Below, piece by piece: positions 2,790 through 33,450 of a stretch of DNA of 64,000 nt. Under the pieces are notes generated by a model, which saw only the letters and a program-made list of their open reading frames with translations, did not search any database and had not been told where the DNA came from. The stretch comes from Phaeocystidibacter marisrubri. Its GTDB lineage: Bacteria; Bacteroidota; Bacteroidia; Flavobacteriales; Schleiferiaceae. The stretch is from positions 1,302,001 to 1,366,000 of the forward strand of contig NZ_WBVQ01000001.1 in NCBI RefSeq assembly GCF_008933165.1, read 5' to 3'. Each line of letters opens with the position of its first letter. Position 1 is the stretch's first letter. A program made the translations under genes and the position numbers.

Positions 2790-3176
2790 ATGGGGACCAG
2801 CTTTCAATTTAGTACACCTCTAGACTCCAATGTTTTAGACGATTTCTATCAAGGAGATCTGTCTTATGCATTGATGATGTTTGAAATTTGCATTGAGCAG
2901 ATGCCCATTGAAGTTGTTCAGTTGAAAGAAGAAATAGAGCACAACTCTCCAGAGGGGTGCCGTAAAATCCTTCATAAGATCAAACCGACTTTCGGAATGA
3001 TCGGCAATGAGCCTCTTTCAGCGCACATCGCAATGATAGAAAAGAGAATAGCAGGCGGCGGTGTAACAATATCCGATGTTCAGGATGAATTGTTGAGCAT
3101 TGTTGAAGAAATTCAAGAAACTCTATTACTTTTAGAGCAGGAATCCACGAACCTTAAGCGACACTTGAACCTGTGA
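2790..3176 (+). CDS. Histidine phosphotransfer (Hpt) domain protein
   Basis: A 128-residue protein, the size of a stand-alone Hpt domain. His62 lies in HKIKPTFGMIG, which matches the HxxKPxFxMxG phospho-acceptor pattern. The rest is predicted helical, as expected for a four-helix bundle. Hpt proteins pass a phosphoryl group between receiver domains in multistep relays. Its stop overlaps the GTG start of the LytTR regulator by four bases, which suggests translational coupling and a shared pathway. No histidine kinase is encoded next to it; the hybrid kinase at 35506-38172 lacks its own Hpt and is one possible donor (inference). Confidence 0.8.
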   Translation: MGTSFQFSTPLDSNVLDDFYQGDLSYALMMFEICIEQMPIEVVQLKEEIEHNSPEGCRKILHKIKPTFGMIGNEPLSAHIAMIEKRIAGGGVTISDVQDELLSIVEEIQETLLLLEQESTNLKRHLNL

Positions 3177-3868
3177 GTACCCTTCGTACCATTATTATTG
3201 AGGATGATCCTATTGCACAAAAGAACCTTGAACACTTGTGCAGTAAGGACGATAGGCTCGAACTGTTGAAGTGCTTCGGAAATAGCGAAGACGCTATCGA
3301 CTTCATGACGTCCAACGACGTGGATCTGATTTTTCTAGACGTAGAACTACCTGGTGAAAGTGGATTGGACATGTTGGAGAATTCTCCAGCGCTTCCTCAA
3401 GTCATTTTTGCGACTTCAAACAAAGAATACGCCTTCGACGCGTTTCAATTTGAGGCCACCGACTTCCTTAAAAAGCCCATCTCTGCTGGTAAATTTGAAA
3501 TGAGCGTTTCGAAAGCTGCCAAACGAGCAGAAGAAGCGCCAACACGCAGAGAGAAACCAAATTACATCTTTGTAAAGTCGGATGGTCGTCTCGTGCGCAT
3601 CATGATTCAAGATATCTTGTTTATCGAAAATGTGGGAGATTACGTGAAAGTGGTGACCAGCAATGGAAACTACATCACCTACAACACCATGAGGGCGGTA
3701 GATGCGAAGCTATCTGACTACGATTTCTTTAAGGTTCACCGCTCCTTCATTGTGAACCTCAGCAAGGTGGTTGACATTGAAGATAATTCATTGGTAATTG
3801 GAACCACGGTTATTCCAATTAGTCGATCAAACCGCCAAGGTTTGATGGACCGCCTGAATTTACTTTAG
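3173..3868 (+). CDS. LytTR family response regulator
   Basis: 231 residues in two domains. The receiver domain (about 5-120) has the acidic pocket E10-D11-D12, phospho-acceptor Asp56 in FLDVELPG and the conserved lysine in FLKKPIS. The C-terminal LytTR DNA-binding domain (about 133-231) shows the typical FVKSDGRLVRI, ENVGDYVKV and FFKVHRSFIVNL blocks. Such proteins act in the cytoplasm as transcription factors. Translation starts at GTG 3173, inside the stop of the Hpt gene. LytTR regulators usually pair with a LytS-type kinase; here the partner appears to be an Hpt protein, which is less common. Confidence 0.9.
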   Translation: MSTLRTIIIEDDPIAQKNLEHLCSKDDRLELLKCFGNSEDAIDFMTSNDVDLIFLDVELPGESGLDMLENSPALPQVIFATSNKEYAFDAFQFEATDFLKKPISAGKFEMSVSKAAKRAEEAPTRREKPNYIFVKSDGRLVRIMIQDILFIENVGDYVKVVTSNGNYITYNTMRAVDAKLSDYDFFKVHRSFIVNLSKVVDIEDNSLVIGTTVIPISRSNRQGLMDRLNLL

Positions 3869-23917: not shown

Positions 23918-25450
23918 TTATTCCCATTCAATCGTTGCAGGCGGCTTAGAGCTGATGTCGTAAACCACGCGGTTAACACCTTTTACACGGTTGATAATCT
24001 TATTGCTGATTTCAGCCAAGAAAGTGTAAGGTAAATGTACCCAATCTGCGGTCATCCCATCGGTACTTTCCACAGCACGGAGAGCCACTACTTGTTCATA
24101 AGTACGCTCATCGCCCATTACACCTACAGATTGCACGGGTAACAAAATTGCACCTGCTTGCCAAACTTGGTCGTACAATCCGTGTTCTTTCAAACCTTGA
24201 ACGAAGATGTGATCTACTTCTTGTAGGATGGCTACTTTTTCAGGAGTAATATCTCCCAAAATGCGGATTGCCAAACCTGGACCAGGGAAAGGGTGACGTC
24301 CCAAAAGTTCGTCGGCAATTCCCAATTCCTTACCCACTCTTCTCACCTCATCTTTAAACAAGGTGTTCATAGGCTCAACTACTTTGAGCTTCATGAAATC
24401 AGGCAAACCACCTACATTGTGGTGACTTTTAATTGTTGCTGATGGTCCATTAACGCTTACACTCTCGATAACATCAGGATAGATGGTTCCTTGAGCAAGC
24501 CACTTCACATCTTCAATATTCATCGCTTCTTCATCAAATACTTCGATAAAGACTCTACCGATGGTTTTTCGTTTTTCTTCTGGATCTTTTTGTCCCGCGA
24601 GTTGCGACAAGAATTGCTCTGAAGAATCAACCCCTTTTACATTGAGGCCCATTCCTTCATACTGCTTAAGCACTTGTTCAAACTCATCCTTGCGAAGAAG
24701 TCCGTTGTTAACGAAGATACAGTGAAGGCGATCTCCAATAGCTTCACTCAACAAAACGGCTGTAACAGTACTGTCAACACCACCGGAGAGACCAAGTACC
24801 ACCTGATCGTTACCAAGTTTCTCACGAAGTTGACCAACCGTATCTTCAATGAAGCTTGCTGGTGTCCAATCTGCTGAAACACCTACAATATCAATCACGA
24901 AATTCTTCAGAAGCGTCATTCCATCTGTGCTGTGATACACTTCTGGGTGGAACTGAATTCCATACGTAGTTTCGCCTTCAATGCGATATCCAGCAACGCG
25001 AACATCCTTGGTTGAAGCCTCTACTTTGTAGTTCTCTGGCAATTCCATGATGGTGTCGCCATGACTCATCCACACCTGAGATCCAACAGGAACGTCTTTA
25101 AATAAACGCGATGTTGCATCTGTAGAACTCAAATTGGCTCTACCGTATTCTCTATGCTTAGATTTCTCAACTACTCCACCATATTTCAAAGCGAGGTATT
25201 GAGCACCGTAACAAACCCCAAGAAGTGGCAACTTTCCTTTGATCTCCGAAAGATCAGGATCAGGAGCGTTGTGGTCCAATGTAGAATGAGGACTTCCACT
25301 CAATATCACCCCCTTGATTTCAGGAGTTAGTTCTGGGATTTTGTTGTACGGGTGAATTTCACAGTAAACGTTTAACTCACGTACGCGGCGAGCAATCAAC
25401 TGGGTGTATTGCGAGCCGAAATCTAAGATAAGAATCGTATCAGGTGTCAT
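23918..25450 (-). CDS. guaA: GMP synthase (glutamine-hydrolysing)
   Basis: 510 residues, the normal length. The N-terminal class I amidotransferase domain has the catalytic cysteine in GVCYGAQYL and the His/Glu dyad in [11 protein letters not shown]. The ATP-pyrophosphatase domain has the PP-loop [10 protein letters not shown], and the C-terminal dimerisation domain ends in the invariant KPPATIEWE. It converts XMP to GMP with glutamine and ATP in the cytoplasm. The frame runs 70 codons further upstream through the riboswitch region; that part has no GuaA similarity, and the ATG at 25450 gives the standard beginning. A TACTTTTG element sits only four bases before this start. Confidence 0.97.
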
Positions 25451-25454
25451 GCTG

Positions 25455-25462
25455 CAAAAGTA
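25455..25462 (-). promoter_or_regulatory. Putative -7 promoter element abutting the guaA start
   Basis: TACTTTTG on the minus strand, an exact TAnnTTTG match, ends four bases before the guaA ATG. A TTTC lies 19 bases upstream of it, three of four matches to the -33 TTTG. If used, transcription would begin at or next to the start codon. Confidence 0.45.
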
Positions 25463-25587
25463 GGTCTTCCAACTGAGTTGAGAAATAGCAGTCTGCGATG
25501 AATTATCAACGATGGAATAGTGATAAGAGGGACGATACGCATGTGCTTGAAAGAAGTCCAACCCGAAACTTCTTCGTAATCTTGCAA

Positions 25588-25725
25588 CTGAATCGTTCTT
25601 ATCCCATTTTACAGAAGGGACCACAGGGGAATTCGGTGAAAATCCGAAACTGTCGCGCAACTGTGTGTAGTATGATCGAAGAGCTCAACAGCCGATCTTT
25701 ACTATGAGTCAGATTACCTGCCTTT
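25588..25725 (+). promoter_or_regulatory. Cobalamin (B12) riboswitch
   Basis: The conserved core of the cobalamin riboswitch can be read on the plus strand: an ATCCC/GGGA hairpin (25601-25620), GGGGAA (25627-25632), GGTGAAAATCC (25635-25645), CGCGCAACTGT (25654-25664), and the B12 box GAGTCAGATTACCTGCCT (25706-25723). The parts are in the right order and spacing. Such elements bind adenosyl- or methylcobalamin and usually repress transport or B12-linked genes. Downstream lies only a 28-codon open frame (25757) and, 133 bases on, a thioesterase gene not known as a B12 target. The 5' boundary is approximate. Confidence 0.8.
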
Positions 25726-25858
25726 CATTTCAGACATTGCTTTCGCGATTTGAAGCATGATTTTAGGTTGTCACTTTCCACTACGTATGGAAACGTGGTG
25801 TACCGCTTCGTTTGTGCGAAACTCTGTCTGTTCCAGTCTTTGAATACACTACATTATC
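25726..25858 (+). other. Leader or remnant between riboswitch and thioesterase gene
   Basis: 133 bases with no recognisable gene. A weak hairpin (TGCTT at 25739-25743 with AAGCA at 25753-25757) lies just after the B12 box. The ATG at 25757 opens a 28-codon frame ending at 25843, placed about where the regulated gene of a riboswitch would start, but its product resembles nothing I know. Together with 25451-25587, where I see nothing, this completes the 408-base gap between guaA and the thioesterase gene. Confidence 0.4.
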
Positions 25859-26248
25859 ATGACCAAACAAGAGAGAATCAACCAATCTGAAACGCGAATT
25901 TTTAAAGCGGTATTCCCGAATACCACCAATCACTACGACACGCTATTTGGAGGAACCGCTATGCAACTGATGGACGAGGTTGCCTTTATTGCTGCCACTC
26001 GTTTTAGCCGCCAACGCATGGTAACGGTGAGCAGTGATCGCATCGATTTCAAAAAACCCATTCCCGCAGGTACTATTGCTGAATTCATAGGAAGGGTAAC
26101 GTACACTGGCAACACGAGCTTAAAAGTTCGGGTAGACATCGTGATTGAACAGATGTACTCCGATCACCGCGAAAAAGCCATCACCGGAGAGTTCACATTT
26201 GTTGCGATAGATGAGAACAAAAAACCGATCAGTATTTTTAACGGATAA
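25859..26248 (+). CDS. Acyl-CoA thioesterase, hotdog fold (YciA/BACH type)
   Basis: 129 residues, a single hotdog domain. The family pattern is clear: NHYDTLFGGTAMQLMDEVAFIAATR carries the central helix with the catalytic-region Asn and Asp, followed by RIDFKKPIPAG and YTGNTSLKVRVDI. Such enzymes hydrolyse acyl-CoA to free acid and CoA in the cytoplasm. It lies downstream of the cobalamin riboswitch on the same strand, so it may fall under B12 control, although this would be unusual. It converges on dinB with an 18-base gap. Confidence 0.88.
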   Translation: MTKQERINQSETRIFKAVFPNTTNHYDTLFGGTAMQLMDEVAFIAATRFSRQRMVTVSSDRIDFKKPIPAGTIAEFIGRVTYTGNTSLKVRVDIVIEQMYSDHREKAITGEFTFVAIDENKKPISIFNG

Positions 26249-26266
26249 AGCTAAATGCAGCTCGCA

Positions 26267-27337
26267 TTAAAACTCTAATGTGAGTTGCACTTCCCTCTCT
26301 TCTACATCAAAGTTGGATACGGTTATTCCCAACAATCGTATAGGATCTGCAGGAACAGATTGCTGTAATAAAGCAACGACGGTTTCCATAATTACGTCAA
26401 TGTCGTTGGTCACCTCGGGGAGTGTATGACTGCGAGTTTGAACCTCAAAACTGGAGTTCTTCAATTTCAGGGTAATGGTTTTCCCCTTTGAATGGGCGCG
26501 TTTCAATCGGTGTTCACATCGCTCACCCAATTTGTACAATGCGGCAAGCATAGATTCTTCGGAGAGCAAATCAGTGCTAAACGTTTCCTCCACTCCCACG
26601 CTTTTTCGCACACGGTTAGGAACCACTTCGGAGTGTTGAATCCCACGTACAATATTGTAATAATGCTGACCACTTTTGCCAAAGCGGCTCTTCAGAATCA
26701 TCAAATCCACTTCCATTAGGTCCGCTCCGCGATACACATTCATTTGGTGGAATTTTTCCGCCGTTTTTACTCCAACGCCAAAAAACTTCTCAATGGGCAA
26801 TTGCATCAAAAATGCATCTACTTCTTTGGGGGGAATCGTCTTCTGTCCATTGGGTTTATTGATATCACTCGCAACCTTGGCTAAGAATTTATTGATGCTA
26901 ATTCCTGCACTCGCTCGGAGTTGAGTTGTTTCGAAAATGCGCTGACGAATCTCTTGAGCAATGAGCGTTGCCGAAGTCATTCCCTTGTGATTGGTCGTTA
27001 CATCCAGGAAAGCTTCATCCAGACTCAATGGTTCTACCCGAGAAGTGTAATCGAGGAAAATATCCCGTATTTGCTGGCTCACTGCTTTGTACTTATCGAA
27101 GTCGGGCTTTACAAAGATGAGTTCTGGACACCGCCTCGCGGCGATGGATGAAGGCATAGCTGAGCGAACACCGTACTTCCGAGCTTCATAACTGGCGGCG
27201 GCCACCACTCCTCTTTCAGCTGACCCACCCACGGCAACGGGTTTTCCGCGCAACTCAGGACGATCACGCTGTTCTACGCTGGCGTAAAACGCGTCCATAT
27301 CCACATGGATAATCTTCCGAATGGGCTTCTCCTCCAT
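26267..27337 (-). CDS. dinB: DNA polymerase IV (Y-family translesion polymerase)
   Basis: 356 residues, full length for Pol IV. Catalytic acidic residues are in HVDMDAFYASVEQ and SLDEAFLDVT; the steric and fingers region has AASYEARKYGVRSAMP, and helix-hairpin-helix and little-finger regions follow. The C-terminus ends in VQLTLEF, which fits a beta-clamp binding motif (QLxLF-like). It copies past DNA lesions with low fidelity. It stands alone between convergent and same-strand neighbours; no LexA box was recognised. Confidence 0.96.
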   Translation of the reverse strand: MEEKPIRKIIHVDMDAFYASVEQRDRPELRGKPVAVGGSAERGVVAAASYEARKYGVRSAMPSSIAARRCPELIFVKPDFDKYKAVSQQIRDIFLDYTSRVEPLSLDEAFLDVTTNHKGMTSATLIAQEIRQRIFETTQLRASAGISINKFLAKVASDINKPNGQKTIPPKEVDAFLMQLPIEKFFGVGVKTAEKFHQMNVYRGADLMEVDLMILKSRFGKSGQHYYNIVRGIQHSEVVPNRVRKSVGVEETFSTDLLSEESMLAALYKLGERCEHRLKRAHSKGKTITLKLKNSSFEVQTRSHTLPEVTNDIDVIMETVVALLQQSVPADPIRLLGITVSNFDVEEREVQLTLEF

Positions 27338-28458: not shown

Positions 28459-29985
28459 ATGGAAACAACAACAGCGAGCTTCCCTTTCGTGAACAGGGAA
28501 GTGTCATTTAAACACCAATACGACAACTTTATTGGTGGCAAATGGGTTCAACCGATCAAAGGGGAATATTTCGAGAACACATCTCCTATTAACGGCCAGG
28601 CTTTCACCAAAGCAGCGCGTTCAACAGCCGAAGACATCGACTTAGCACTTGATGCCGCCCATGAAGCCTTTGTCACATGGAGCAAAACCAGTGCCGCCGC
28701 TCGCTCGAATGCCCTTCTCAAAATCGCACAAATTGTGGAGGACAATCTTGAGTACTTGGCGACTATTGAAACCATCGACAATGGCAAGGCTATTCGTGAA
28801 ACGATGGCTGCCGACCTCCCTTTGGTGGTGGATCACTTCCGCTACTTTGCCGGCGTCATTCGCGCAGACGAAAGCACGGTTAGTGAGCACGACGAGAACA
28901 CCGTAAGCATTAACCTTCAGGAGCCACTTGGCGTAGTGGGGCAAATCATTCCTTGGAACTTCCCATTGTTGATGGCAGCGTGGAAAATCGCTCCTGCCCT
29001 TGCTGCAGGCTGTACTATTGTAGTGAAGCCAGCGGAACAAACACCAACATCCATCATGTGTTTCATGGAACTCATTGGCGATGTTCTTCCGGCAGGTGTT
29101 CTGAACGTGGTAACCGGTTTCGGTATTGAAGCAGGTAAACCACTCGCCACGTCTTCGCGCGTAGCGAAAGTTGCTTTTACAGGTGAAACCACAACAGGAC
29201 GCCTTATCATGCAATACGCATCGGAGAACCTCATTCCTGTAACCATGGAGCTTGGAGGAAAATCTCCAAACATCTTCTTTAGCTCTGTTGCTGATGCTGA
29301 TGACGAGTTCTTTGACAAGGCCGTAGAAGGTGCAGTTATGTTCGCCTTGAATCAAGGTGAAGTTTGCACCTGCCCTTCGCGTATTCTCGTTCAAGAGGAT
29401 ATCTATGATAAATTCATGTCACGCGTTGTTGAACGTACCAAGGCCATCAAATTGGGCAACCCACTCGACCCTAGCACCATGATGGGTGCTCAAGCATCTC
29501 AAGATCAATATGAGAAGATTCTGAGTTACATGAAGATTGGTCAGGAAGAAGGTGCTGAACTGCTTTGTGGTGGAGCTAATGCTGGATTGAACAGTGGGTT
29601 AGAAACAGGCTATTACATTCAACCAACCATCTTCAAAGGGCACAATAAGATGCGTATCTTCCAAGAAGAAATCTTTGGTCCTGTGGTTTCGGTAACCACA
29701 TTCAAAACGGTAGAAGAAGCCATCGAAATTGCGAATGACACCCTTTACGGACTTGGCGCTGGAGTGTGGACACGTGATTCCCACGAACTCTACCAAGTTC
29801 CACGTGCTATTCAAGCAGGACGAGTTTGGGTAAATTGTTACCACGCCTATCCAGCACATGCACCATTTGGAGGATACAAGAAGTCAGGTTTCGGTAGAGA
29901 AACGCACAAGATGATGTTAAATCACTACCGCAACACCAAGAACATGCTCATTTCTTATGACAAGAAGAAGCTTGGATTCTTTTGA
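28459..29985 (+). CDS. NAD+-dependent aldehyde dehydrogenase (acetaldehyde dehydrogenase type)
   Basis: 508 residues, the size of ExaC/AcoD/AldB enzymes. The family cofactor and catalytic motifs are present: [36 protein letters not shown], the general base in [12 protein letters not shown], and the catalytic cysteine in [11 protein letters not shown] (about residue 304). The GEVCTCPSR form is typical of acetaldehyde dehydrogenases. It oxidises aldehydes to acids, here probably acetaldehyde to acetate, which the neighbouring glyoxylate-shunt genes could use. Its end overlaps the DUF779 gene by 29 bases. The AraC gene upstream is the likely regulator. Confidence 0.93.
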
Positions 29986-30403
29986 TGACCAAACCGGGGA
30001 TTCCGCTACTCAACATAGCGAATCCCCTTCTCACATACCCAGAGTTACTCATTCTAAAGAGGCACAGGAATTAATTGAGAAACTAAAAGAGCGTCATGGC
30101 GAGCTCATGTTTCATCAAAGTGGGGGTTGTTGCGACGGCTCTCAGCCGATGTGCTTTCCAAAGGATGAGTTTAAAGTAGGAGGCTCTGATGTTTGTCTCG
30201 GAGAAATTGTCGGTTGTGAATTTTGGATGAGTGCGGATCAGTTTGAATACTGGAAGCACACCCAGCTCAATCTTCATGTTACACCTGGCAGAGGCTCAAG
30301 CTTCTCACTAGAGATTCCACTTGGGATGCGTTTTATCATTCAATCTCGGGTTTTTACCGAAGATGAGTCCGCTCGTTTACAAGAGATCCGATATGGTGGC
30401 TAG
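29957..30403 (+). CDS. DUF779 protein, aldehyde-dehydrogenase companion
   Basis: 148 residues. The DUF779 core covers about 38-148, with the conserved cysteine-rich [17 protein letters not shown] stretch, [21 protein letters not shown], and the [14 protein letters not shown] end. The family is almost always beside this kind of aldehyde dehydrogenase gene, but its function is not established. The start lies inside the dehydrogenase gene in another frame, giving a 29-base overlap; an ATG at 29984 is out of frame with the DUF779 core. The first 35 residues are polar and poorly conserved in type, so the true start might be slightly later, though no other ATG fits. Confidence 0.85.
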
Positions 30404-30444
30404 CTCCCGTTAGCCAAGCAATGGGAATGATACTTTTTAGCAGT

Positions 30445-30485
30445 AAAAGCTCCTCCACAGACTCAAAAAAGTGGAGGAGCTTTTT
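30445..30485. terminator. Bidirectional intrinsic terminator
   Basis: A 14-bp perfect stem (30445-30458 with 30471-30484), with an A run on one side and a T run on the other, lies between the DUF779 gene and the convergent isocitrate lyase gene. Confidence 0.9.
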
Positions 30486-30493
30486 ATTGCGGA

Positions 30494-31768
30494 TTAAAAC
30501 TGATCTGCTTCAGTTGAACCCGCCATCGCCTGAGTACTTGTTCGACCTGCTGTTACCACATTTTGGACCATGTCGTAATAACCAGTCCCTACAAAAGCTT
30601 GATGCTTCACTGCCGAAAAACCTTTACTCACCAATGCAAACTCACGCTCTTGCAGCTCTGAATACCCCGCCATTCCACGTTCGTGGTAGGCTTTACTCAA
30701 TTCAAACATGCTGGTGTTCAAAGCGTGGAATCCTGCGAGTGTAATGAACTGAAATTTGAATCCTAGCGCTGCTAAATCCTCGCGGAACGTCTCCATCTCT
30801 TCAACCGACAACTTACTTGCCCAGTTAAAACTCGGAGAACAGTTATAGGCCAACAGCTTACCTGGATACTCCTTGTGAATTGCTTCAGCGAACTGCCGAG
30901 CTTCAGCTAAACTTGGGTGTGAAGTTTCCATCCAAAGCAAATCAGCATAAGGTGCATAGCTCAATCCTCTATCAATTGCCTGTTCGATGCCATTCTTCAC
31001 ATAGTAGAATCCCTCGCTTGAACGTTCACCTGTTGTAAACTTTTGGTCGCGAATATCAATGTCGGAGGTAATAAGCTGGGCGGCATCTGCATCCGTACGT
31101 GCAACGATAAGTGTTGGCACATTCAGAACATCTGATGCCAATCTCGCGGCAATGAGTTTATTGATCGCTTCTGAAGTAGGGACCAGCACCTTTCCTCCTA
31201 GGTGTCCGCATTTCTTTGCACTGCTCAATTGATCTTCAAAGTGAACGCCAGCGGCACCTGCTTTAATCATCGCTTTCATCAGTTCAAAAGCATTCAAGTT
31301 GCCGCCAAAACCAGCTTCAGCATCAGCCACAATAGGCACCATCCACTCTCTATCTACATCGCCATTCACCGTCGCTATTTGATCTGCTCTAAGAAGTGCA
31401 GCATTAATCTTCTCCACGACCATCGGAACAGAATTCACAGGATACAAGCTCTGATCGGGGTACATCTCTCCGGCTGAATTTGCATCGGCGGCAACCTGCC
31501 AACCGCTCAAATAAATGGCTTCCAGTCCAGCAGCTACCTCTTGAATAGCCTGGTTACCTGTCAGCGCCCCCAGCGCAGAGACCACCGGTTGGGTATTCAG
31601 TTTTTTCCAGAGTACCTCTGCGCCTCTTTTAGCCACAGAGTGTTCAATAATGAAACTACCTCTAAGTCGAAGTACATCTTCTGCATCGTAGGGCCTATAA
31701 ACATTTGCCCAACGAGGGTTAGTTTTCCAGTCGTTTTCCAGTGCGATTCTTTGTTCTTCACGATTCAT
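30494..31768 (-). CDS. aceA: Isocitrate lyase
   Basis: 424 residues, close to the length of E. coli AceA. The signature KKCGHLGG with the catalytic cysteine is seen, as are [22 protein letters not shown] (metal and substrate site) and LLWMETSHP. It splits isocitrate into succinate and glyoxylate, the first step of the glyoxylate shunt. It lies 40 bases after the malate synthase gene on the same strand, so aceB-aceA form one operon, with the divergent ScfR-like gene as candidate regulator. Confidence 0.97.
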
Positions 31769-31808
31769 AATAGTACGGGTCTTGAGTTTGACGTAATTGT
31801 AATAGGGA

Positions 31809-33401
31809 TTAGGATAAATAAGGTTGAGCTTCAGAAGTGAGAAAGGGAACTAGTTCTGCTCGTTTCACCATTCGATTAAAGAGCACTTTTGCTTGAGGAA
31901 GTTTCCCTTTCCATGGATCGATGATCACGCGCTCCAACTTGGCCGATTCTTCATAGAACATCAGGTCGAAGCGCGTTTCGTCCAACACCATTCCCCCCTC
32001 CAATTCAGCCTTGAAATGCAACCATTGCCAGAGTTGAACTCTTGAGATTTCGGCCGTGGCTGCATCCTCCATTAAGTGATGAATAGCAGCAGCCCCTTGT
32101 CCAGATAGCCAAGCAGCCAAATAGTGGAGGCCTATGCTGATGTTCTTTCGAACTCCTTCTTCCGTGATGGATCCCTTGGGAATCGTCGACAAATTTTCTG
32201 CAGTGTAGCTCCAATCGGGAATGAGATCAATTTGATTCTTCTGTGGCATGTATTCATTGAATATCTCCATAGCCAGAGGCACCAATGCAGGGTGAGCCAC
32301 CCACGAGCCATCATGACCATCTCGAACTTCTCTCTCTTTATCCGCTTTTACTTTTTCTAGCGCGCGTTCGTTTGCGATTACATCGTTCTTAATTGGGATT
32401 TGTGCAGCCATACCACCCATGGCATGCGCTCCGCGTGTATGACAAGTGGAAATCAGCATTCGGCTATAGGCCGTCATACATTCTACCGTCATGGTCATTT
32501 GATCCCGATCGGGAAAAAGATTAGAGGGAGAATGTCCCAGCGTTTTAATCATGGAGAACAAGTAATCCCATCGACCACAATTCAAACCCGCGGAATGCTC
32601 CCGGAGGGCATAAAGCACCTCATGCATTTGAAAGACCAACGGAAAGGTTTCCACCAATACAGTCGCTTTAATCGTACCTCGCGGAATCCCAATGATGCGT
32701 TGTGCTTCAATGAACACCTCATTCCACCACTCTGCCTCTTCTGAATCCTCCAGTTTTGCGAGATAGAAATAAGGCGCACTTCCTTTCGCCCATAGCGCGT
32801 GTACGTTGTGATAGAAGAACAAACCGAAATCAAACAACGATGCCGAAATCGGCTTGCCTTCTACTTGGACGTTCGTCTCCTCTAAATGCAATCCACGGGG
32901 ACGAACCATCAGAACAGCAGGACTTTCCGCTACAGAATAAAACTTGCCTGCACTATTTGTAAAGGTCAATTCGTCACGAACCGCTTTATAGAGATTCAAT
33001 TGACCATTCGCTATATTCTTCCATGTAGGTGATGTGCTATCCTCAAGGTCAGCCATAAAAACCTTAGCTCCCGAATTCAGCGCATTGATCATCATCTTGG
33101 CATCCGTTGGTCCAGTAATCTCAACTCGTCTATCATGAATCTGAGATGGAACGGGATTAACGCGCCAGTCTCCTTCTCGAATACTAGCCGTTTCAGGCTT
33201 GTATCCCGGCGTTTCTCCATTCGCATATCGAGTGTTTCTCACCTTTCGCTTCTCGAGCAAATCGAGTCGACGTTTCTCAAACAACTCATGAAGAATGCCA
33301 ACAAATTGAAGAGCCTCATCGGTGAAAACTGCCTTACACTCTGAAGCGTAATCACTCACTATCATTGGTTTAACCACATTGTCTACATCTACTCGGAACA
33401 T
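31809..33401 (-). CDS. aceB: Malate synthase A
   Basis: About 530 residues, near the 533 of E. coli AceB. Family motifs include [13 protein letters not shown], the catalytic region [34 protein letters not shown] and [13 protein letters not shown]. It condenses glyoxylate with acetyl-CoA to malate. The ATG at 33401 is chosen; a longer start at 33437 adds 12 codons of little character, and it would push the start closer to the palindrome at 33451. First gene of aceB-aceA. A weak -7-like CATATTTG (minus strand, 33425-33432) lies 23 bases before the start. Confidence 0.95.
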
Positions 33402-33450
33402 GACTTTCTCTGTTTTGGTTGTTTCAAATATGAGCAAACTTTTCTATTTC

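Follow-up and report, generated by a model that had tools for sequence, protein, structure and literature searches.

Across 197 genomes, B12-riboswitch regulons have been described to comprise B12 synthesis, the transport of B12 and its precursors, cobalt transport, and isozymes of B12-dependent enzymes (PMC3766115). A fatty-acid desaturase has also been reported as a target and was read as a possible isozyme (PMC2211319). The word 'thioesterase' does not occur in the main text of either PMC2211319 or PMC3766115. Among the open-access titles and abstract openings searched, none links B12-riboswitch control with an acyl-CoA thioesterase; wording for both occurs in, for example, PMC8620254 and PMC6997564.

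Class I switches (RF00174), as found upstream of btuB and metE, carry a P8-P12 extension. Class II switches (IIa and IIb; RF01482, AdoCbl, and RF01689, AdoCbl-II) lack this extension and have GGAA at J3/4, and class IIb is described with UCU at J6/3 (PMC11260477). In PMC10653944, the consensus of loop L5 is given as UCCCG, its bases are called highly conserved, and mutation shows that the loop pairing carries regulation. The switch described here, from Phaeocystidibacter marisrubri, shares with class I the aptamer core, the B12 box, an L5-L13 kissing loop and the position in a 5' leader. It differs from class I in its target, an acyl-CoA thioesterase gene, in an L5 of UCGCG with a matched L13, in the lack of a P8-P12 type arm and in UUA at J6/3. 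With class II it shares the missing extension and the GGAA at J3/4; unlike class IIb, the short thioesterase-linked switches carry UUA, AUA or UCC at J6/3 instead of UCU. Judged from sequence, this cobalamin riboswitch, with a leader of its own, very likely controls the thioesterase gene downstream of it.

In the window, by which we mean the whole 64-kb stretch analysed, Rfam cmscan places RF00174 at 25576-25739 on the forward strand, with 43.1 bits against a gathering cut-off of 31.5 (E 1.6e-7). The match covers the model completely (1-189), and RF00174 is the sole Rfam family above its gathering score in the window. This bears out the earlier note, which had described a well-preserved riboswitch core and B12 box and had named a search with this model as the check. 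A second model, R1, was built from sequences that include the window's and eight Chryseobacterium-type switches. It gives 109 bits at 25590-25771, a score that, like those of the Chryseobacterium-type switches, is not independent because R1 contains these sequences.

All elements of the switch lie on the forward strand. A possible -7 promoter element, TAATCTTG (25577-25584), has one mismatch to TAnnTTTG, the -7 consensus of Bacteroidota, and is weak alone; it shares alignment columns with TAnnTTTG-like sites 5' of Chryseobacterium-type switches, and no -33 element was recognised 5' of it. As read from the sequence, P1 is formed by CTGAA (25588-25592) and TTCAG (25729-25733) and thus spans only about 5 bp, and the P2 hairpin (TCCC ... 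GGGA) lies at 25602-25620. The GGAA of J3/4 is contained in GGGGAA (25626-25631), 3' of which a hairpin TTCGG ... CCGAA (25632-25648) forms covarying helix 2. L5, UCGCG, lies at 25653-25657. At the position of the P8-P12 type extension there is a short arm (25668-25704) without the GGGAAG motif, and only 41 nt separate ACUGU from the B12 box. This box, GAGTCAGATTACCTGCC (25706-25722), has two changes, both within J6/3, whose sequence is UUA compared with AGA in most long switches. The P13/L13 hairpin, GCTTTCGCGATTTGAAGC, follows at 25739-25756, and its loop CGCGA (25744-25748) can pair with L5 over 5 bp, as in a kissing loop. Compared with the earlier extent of 25601-25723, one correction applies: the switch continues past the aptamer to P13/L13. 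A further leader hairpin, CACTACG ... CGTGGTG (25779-25800), may belong to the expression platform; Chryseobacterium-type switches have a different hairpin at roughly this position. The minimum free energy fold of the leader is no better than that of shuffled sequences (z -0.13).

The gene behind the switch (25859-26248, forward strand) encodes a YciA-like, hotdog-fold acyl-CoA thioesterase of 129 aa. Its 4HBT domain (PF03061) scores 64.6 bits against a cut-off of 20.6, which places it in the superfamily, and its best NCBIfam model, YciA (NF007970), gives only 55 bits, far short of the 162 bits set for equivalogs. With the YciA hydrolase the protein shares the hotdog 4HBT domain and a similar length; it is set apart by this low score and belongs to a separate group that has a conserved block of its own, NHYDTLFGGTA..MDE. 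The best solved relatives by sequence are 2gvh and 2eis, chains without a functional name; next come acyl-CoA hydrolases and thioesterases, 5egl and 5hz4 among them. The neighbours, assigned by NCBIfam, are guaA (23918-25450), divergent on the left, and dinB (26267-27337) on the right, both on the reverse strand, in agreement with the earlier observation that no classical B12 gene adjoins the switch. Two RF00174 matches were found in the genome in total; the other (113.9 bits) lies 5' of a TonB-receptor plug-domain gene, probably BtuB. The genome also encodes methylmalonyl-CoA mutase and has a MetH match (G000:C1:847071-850589, L235) with one in-frame TAG inside, perhaps a MetH split over two genes; MetE was not found in it.

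Pairing of switch and thioesterase is widespread in the order. A close thioesterase (E<=1e-40) is present in 89 of 395 order genomes. A switch lies directly upstream in 56 of these, two have the order switch-gene-thioesterase, 24 have none and seven fell outside the scan, so that a B12 switch precedes the close thioesterase in 58 of 82 scanned genomes. The 56 consist of 40 detected by R1 (the window and two partial matches, G131 and G213, included) and 16 located by RF00174 coordinates at 102-119 bp. Rfam, run on 20 of 28 newly found order loci, gave RF00174 above its cut-off in 17, of which 16 have it directly upstream at 104-117 bits and one has a gene between; among the other three, L088 has a sub-threshold AdoCbl match and L091 and L113 have no match. 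Genus g24, called Chryseobacterium-like because it groups with L225 in the thioesterase tree, carries the switch in 41 of 41 genomes and so accounts for 41 of the 58 switch-positive genomes; the remaining genera carry it in 17 of 41 scanned. At least one switch occurs in 7 of the 17 genera with a close thioesterase, i.e. the linkage extends over several lineages, as in a B12 regulon.

A second, named set comprises the best 80 of 584 thioesterase loci, scanned with R1 at E<1e-5; it overlaps with the order set (G274 is apparently L191). Here the switch was found in 34 of 80 loci, always upstream and on the thioesterase strand, with three weaker R1 matches left out of the count. Among these best 80, switch-bearing loci include Chryseobacterium, Tenacibaculum, Flavobacterium, Fluviicola, Taishania, one of many Pedobacter, Flexithrix, Taibaiella and a complete Glaciecola chromosome. 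Thioesterases without a detected switch make up the other 46 of the best 80, besides the 24 of 82 scanned order genomes. On the thioesterase tree the switch label clusters (21 changes against a shuffled mean of 39.5, with 0 of 500 shuffles as low); this tree, built on few columns, leaves the window unplaced. As a control, 11 of 14 guaA loci of relatives were scanned with Rfam, and RF00174 was found in 0 of the 11. The earlier note had called the switch an orphan, which these counts in both sets contradict. Of its two explanations, the deletion of a B12 gene that left the switch behind is at odds with the dozens of genomes in which the same thioesterase lies 3' of a B12 switch, the window's switch being of the thioesterase-linked type, whereas the conserved linkage favours the other, a new B12 target. 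The thioesterase is thus probably a B12-controlled gene for which we found no earlier description, and not a leftover's neighbour.

One switch-bearing locus (L156) lies on the complete chromosome CP034120.1, labelled Glaciecola amylolytica, with the switch at 2362-2565, the thioesterase at 3001-3381 and a small ORF between. The thioesterase is 85% identical to that of the window and nested among Fluviicola types in the tree. Its presence on a gammaproteobacterial chromosome means either an inter-phylum transfer of the pair as a unit or a mislabelled genome.

The loops of these switches differ from the published consensus in a coordinated way. The strong RF00174 switches examined in the window's family have an L5 of (N)CCCG and a downstream CGGG; most thioesterase-linked switches, and the window, have UCGCG and CGCG(A). 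Using one pattern, we compared 81 switches, a set that omits several thioesterase-linked ones (e.g. L121, L165, L170, L180, L211 and L233). An L5 of CGCG is accompanied by a downstream CGCG in 44 of 45 cases, against 2 of 32 in the CCCG class; CCCG is accompanied by CGGG in 29 of 32, against 7 of 45 in the CGCG class; and all 4 switches with CGTG have CACG downstream, which is seen in 2 of 45 of the CGCG class and 3 of 32 of the CCCG class. Fisher values for this pairing overstate independence because the sequences are related. In a recount of 56 thioesterase-linked switches, which are likewise related and partly duplicate (L087 and L191 are alike), L5 matches L13 in 51. By L5 these are 48 with UCGCG (46 with a 4-5 nt partner), five with UCGUG (all five matched) and three with UCCCG (none matched without a bulge). 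The five mismatched switches are L155, L164, L167, L121 and L161, the first three of which can pair with a bulged U. Across 48 thioesterase-linked switches (47 distinct), in an alignment fitted to the model, the 18 model pairs hold standard base pairs in 98.8% of their cells, and 11 of the 18 change on both sides; none of 500 shuffles gave so high a value. Without a kissing loop, several matched loop pairs would be difficult to account for. They would be a natural case of compensatory change in a kissing loop, at L5 positions described as highly conserved (PMC10653944).

The window's switch also belongs to a group with a reduced arm. Its B12 box reads GATTACC, compared with GAAGACC or GAGACC. 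The GGGAAG arm motif is missing in 24 of 48 thioesterase-linked switches. AGACC at J6/3 is absent from 23 of those 24 but present in 21 of the 24 with the motif (as GAGACC in L104). Four switches without the motif (L163, L134, L121 and L167) nevertheless have a long insert at the arm position. In J6/3 the window (ATTACC) is accompanied by L158 (GTTACC), L161 (ATTACC), L196 (AATACC) and the Fluviicola and Taibaiella types (ATACC or ATACT). Of 16 short thioesterase-linked loci, 11 match class II families best (nine RF01482, two RF01689) and five RF00174, with ten of the 11 class II matches below the cut-off and one above it (L161). Since 22 other thioesterase-linked switches lack both GGGAAG and AGACC, the window's low score reflects, as far as sequence comparison goes, an arm-less subtype with a changed J6/3 and not simply decay. 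An initial reading of the J6/3 change itself as decay was withdrawn on the 23 of 24 just given. A J6/3 of UUA, not AGA, may still change or weaken ligand binding. Five further switches (L207, L208, L227, L234 and L088) are very short, with a core of 65-71 nt, loops UCGUG and CACGA, and ATACAT in place of ATACC; in three of the five, a PAS-domain-like gene follows the switch.

Within the family the picture is different. With stricter filters, RF00174 occurs in 84 of 88 family genomes, and a second match is confined to the genome of the window; the family's other switches score 77-123 bits against 43 for the window's. Close thioesterase orthologues are found in G030 (83% identical) and in G026, G027 and G005 (70-74%), and no switch was detected in the scanned thioesterase loci of these four. 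This had suggested the thioesterase as a non-target, a reading overturned by the order loci, 17 of 20 with RF00174. G030, of the same genus, keeps its thioesterase at another place; in G031, also of the genus, the best thioesterase is only 36% identical. In both genomes guaA and dinB are adjacent, with neither switch nor thioesterase between them, so either the window's lineage gained the pair by insertion or theirs lost it. The tblastn ends of guaA and dinB lie 224 bp apart in one genus relative and 670 bp in the other (G030, G031), the larger gap containing an unrelated ORF of roughly 196 aa. The guaA-dinB gap (25450-26267 in the window) therefore has different contents in each of three genus members, namely switch and thioesterase, a short gap and the ~196-aa frame, and may be an insertion hotspot. 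We also considered the window's switch as a degenerate copy of the genome's BtuB-type switch. Its core alone closely resembles a strong G030 switch (L005), but the two switches of the genome align poorly outside the core, and L5, L13 and the P13 hairpin are common to the window and to thioesterase switches of another genus; this candidate was rejected.

No sizeable ORF separates switch and thioesterase in the Chryseobacterium type, Tenacibaculum adriaticum, Taishania and the window. Elsewhere other genes intervene. In seven loci (six of the best 80 of 584 named loci, and G342), metE and the thioesterase follow one switch, with metE identified by NCBIfam in one locus (1132 bits) and read from the sequence in the others. 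Among the matches listed, FabH lies between switch and thioesterase in four Flavobacterium species (L183, L198, L224 and L230), tested in L183 and assigned by similarity in the other three; a B12 link to fatty-acid primer choice is possible. Further partners are a Dph6-like ATPase in three Flavobacterium loci (in the one tested, Pfam is above and NCBIfam Dph6 below the cut-off), CWC cysteine-rich proteins (L180 and L155 tested), a PAS protein in four loci (two tested) and a secreted protein in L160. In L155 (1195-2997), DUF6580, CWC/DUF5522 and a Peripla_BP_2 protein come after the switch and ahead of the thioesterase, and DUF6580 may take part in B12 transport.

How would such a switch act? 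Cobalamin binding would lock L5 onto L13, stabilise P13 and repress the gene, as it does with btuB and metE switches; thioesterase expression would then rise under B12 shortage. By this analogy an OFF sign is likely. In line with this, cobalamin represses metE in the cases described (PMC2211319), and the metE-thioesterase operons therefore point to expression under B12 shortage. Without B12, methylmalonyl-CoA mutase would stall, and propionyl-CoA and methylmalonyl-CoA would accumulate. The thioesterase would then set the bound CoA free and so get round the shortage, by the logic with which MetE stands in for MetH. Like metE, the thioesterase would thus be a gene that compensates for the lack of B12; unlike metE, it does not encode an isozyme of a B12-dependent enzyme and would instead relieve a blocked step. 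The methylmalonyl- or propionyl-CoA link, which the earlier note had raised, fits. Mutase matches (PF01642, E<=1e-50) were obtained in 88 of the 89 genomes with the thioesterase and in 227 of the 306 without it; this co-occurrence fits relief but barely discriminates and is confounded by genome reduction and kinship. That the enzyme relieves a C3/C4 acyl-CoA build-up is a proposal we favour tentatively, at a strength just short of probable. The explanation as a whole, headed by control of the gene through the switch, we regard as probable.

The strongest competitor, only slightly weaker than relief itself, accepts control of the thioesterase and assigns it another role, such as membrane fatty-acid adjustment or general acyl-CoA turnover. 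YciA-like enzymes are broad, many generic acyl-CoA hydrolases are among the solved-structure relatives, and FabH stands between switch and thioesterase in Flavobacterium. However, FabH can take propionyl-CoA as a primer, so that the FabH operons fit the relief model too, and the MetE partners point to workarounds for B12 shortage. The sign could also be reversed, with B12 activating the thioesterase. One corrinoid riboswitch is known to activate its gene (PMC10653944), and the OFF sign is therefore not certain, but the switch type is the same as that preceding the cobalamin-repressed metE in the seven loci, and we consider an ON switch improbable.

Two other explanations deny the switch a present function at this gene. 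It may have arrived with the thioesterase and since lost cobalamin sensing, in accordance with its score below the family range, UUA in place of AGA, the short P1 and the relative G030, which keeps the thioesterase with no switch found. Such decay is unlikely: L5 and L13 still match, P2 and the P13 hairpin persist, the distance to the gene is retained, and the 22 other thioesterase-linked switches without GGGAAG and AGACC share its deviations. Still much less likely is that the switch is a leftover of B12 gene loss or acts on guaA or a small RNA. It is divergent from guaA and no classical B12 gene is adjacent, but the conserved linkage with the thioesterase and the 11 scanned guaA loci of relatives, none with a switch, both speak against it.

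Returning to OFF control with acyl-CoA relief, we tentatively propose, as a combined idea that may well not hold in full, a distinct Bacteroidota lineage of B12 riboswitches together with a 'CoA rescue' under B12 shortage. The lineage would be marked by re-paired loops (UCGCG/CGCGA, elsewhere UCGUG/CACGA) and by arm-less members with UUA, AUA or UCC at J6/3, and may read a different corrinoid form. In the rescue, the thioesterase, alone or with MetE, FabH or unknown partners, would drain acyl-CoAs when the mutase stalls. If true, the thioesterase would be another kind of B12-riboswitch target, one that relieves a blocked B12-dependent step, and this makes a testable prediction on the survival of B12-dependent Bacteroidota under B12 shortage. 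Near the thioesterase, at 28459-33437, the window also contains an aldehyde dehydrogenase and a DUF779 gene, followed by isocitrate lyase and malate synthase of the glyoxylate shunt.
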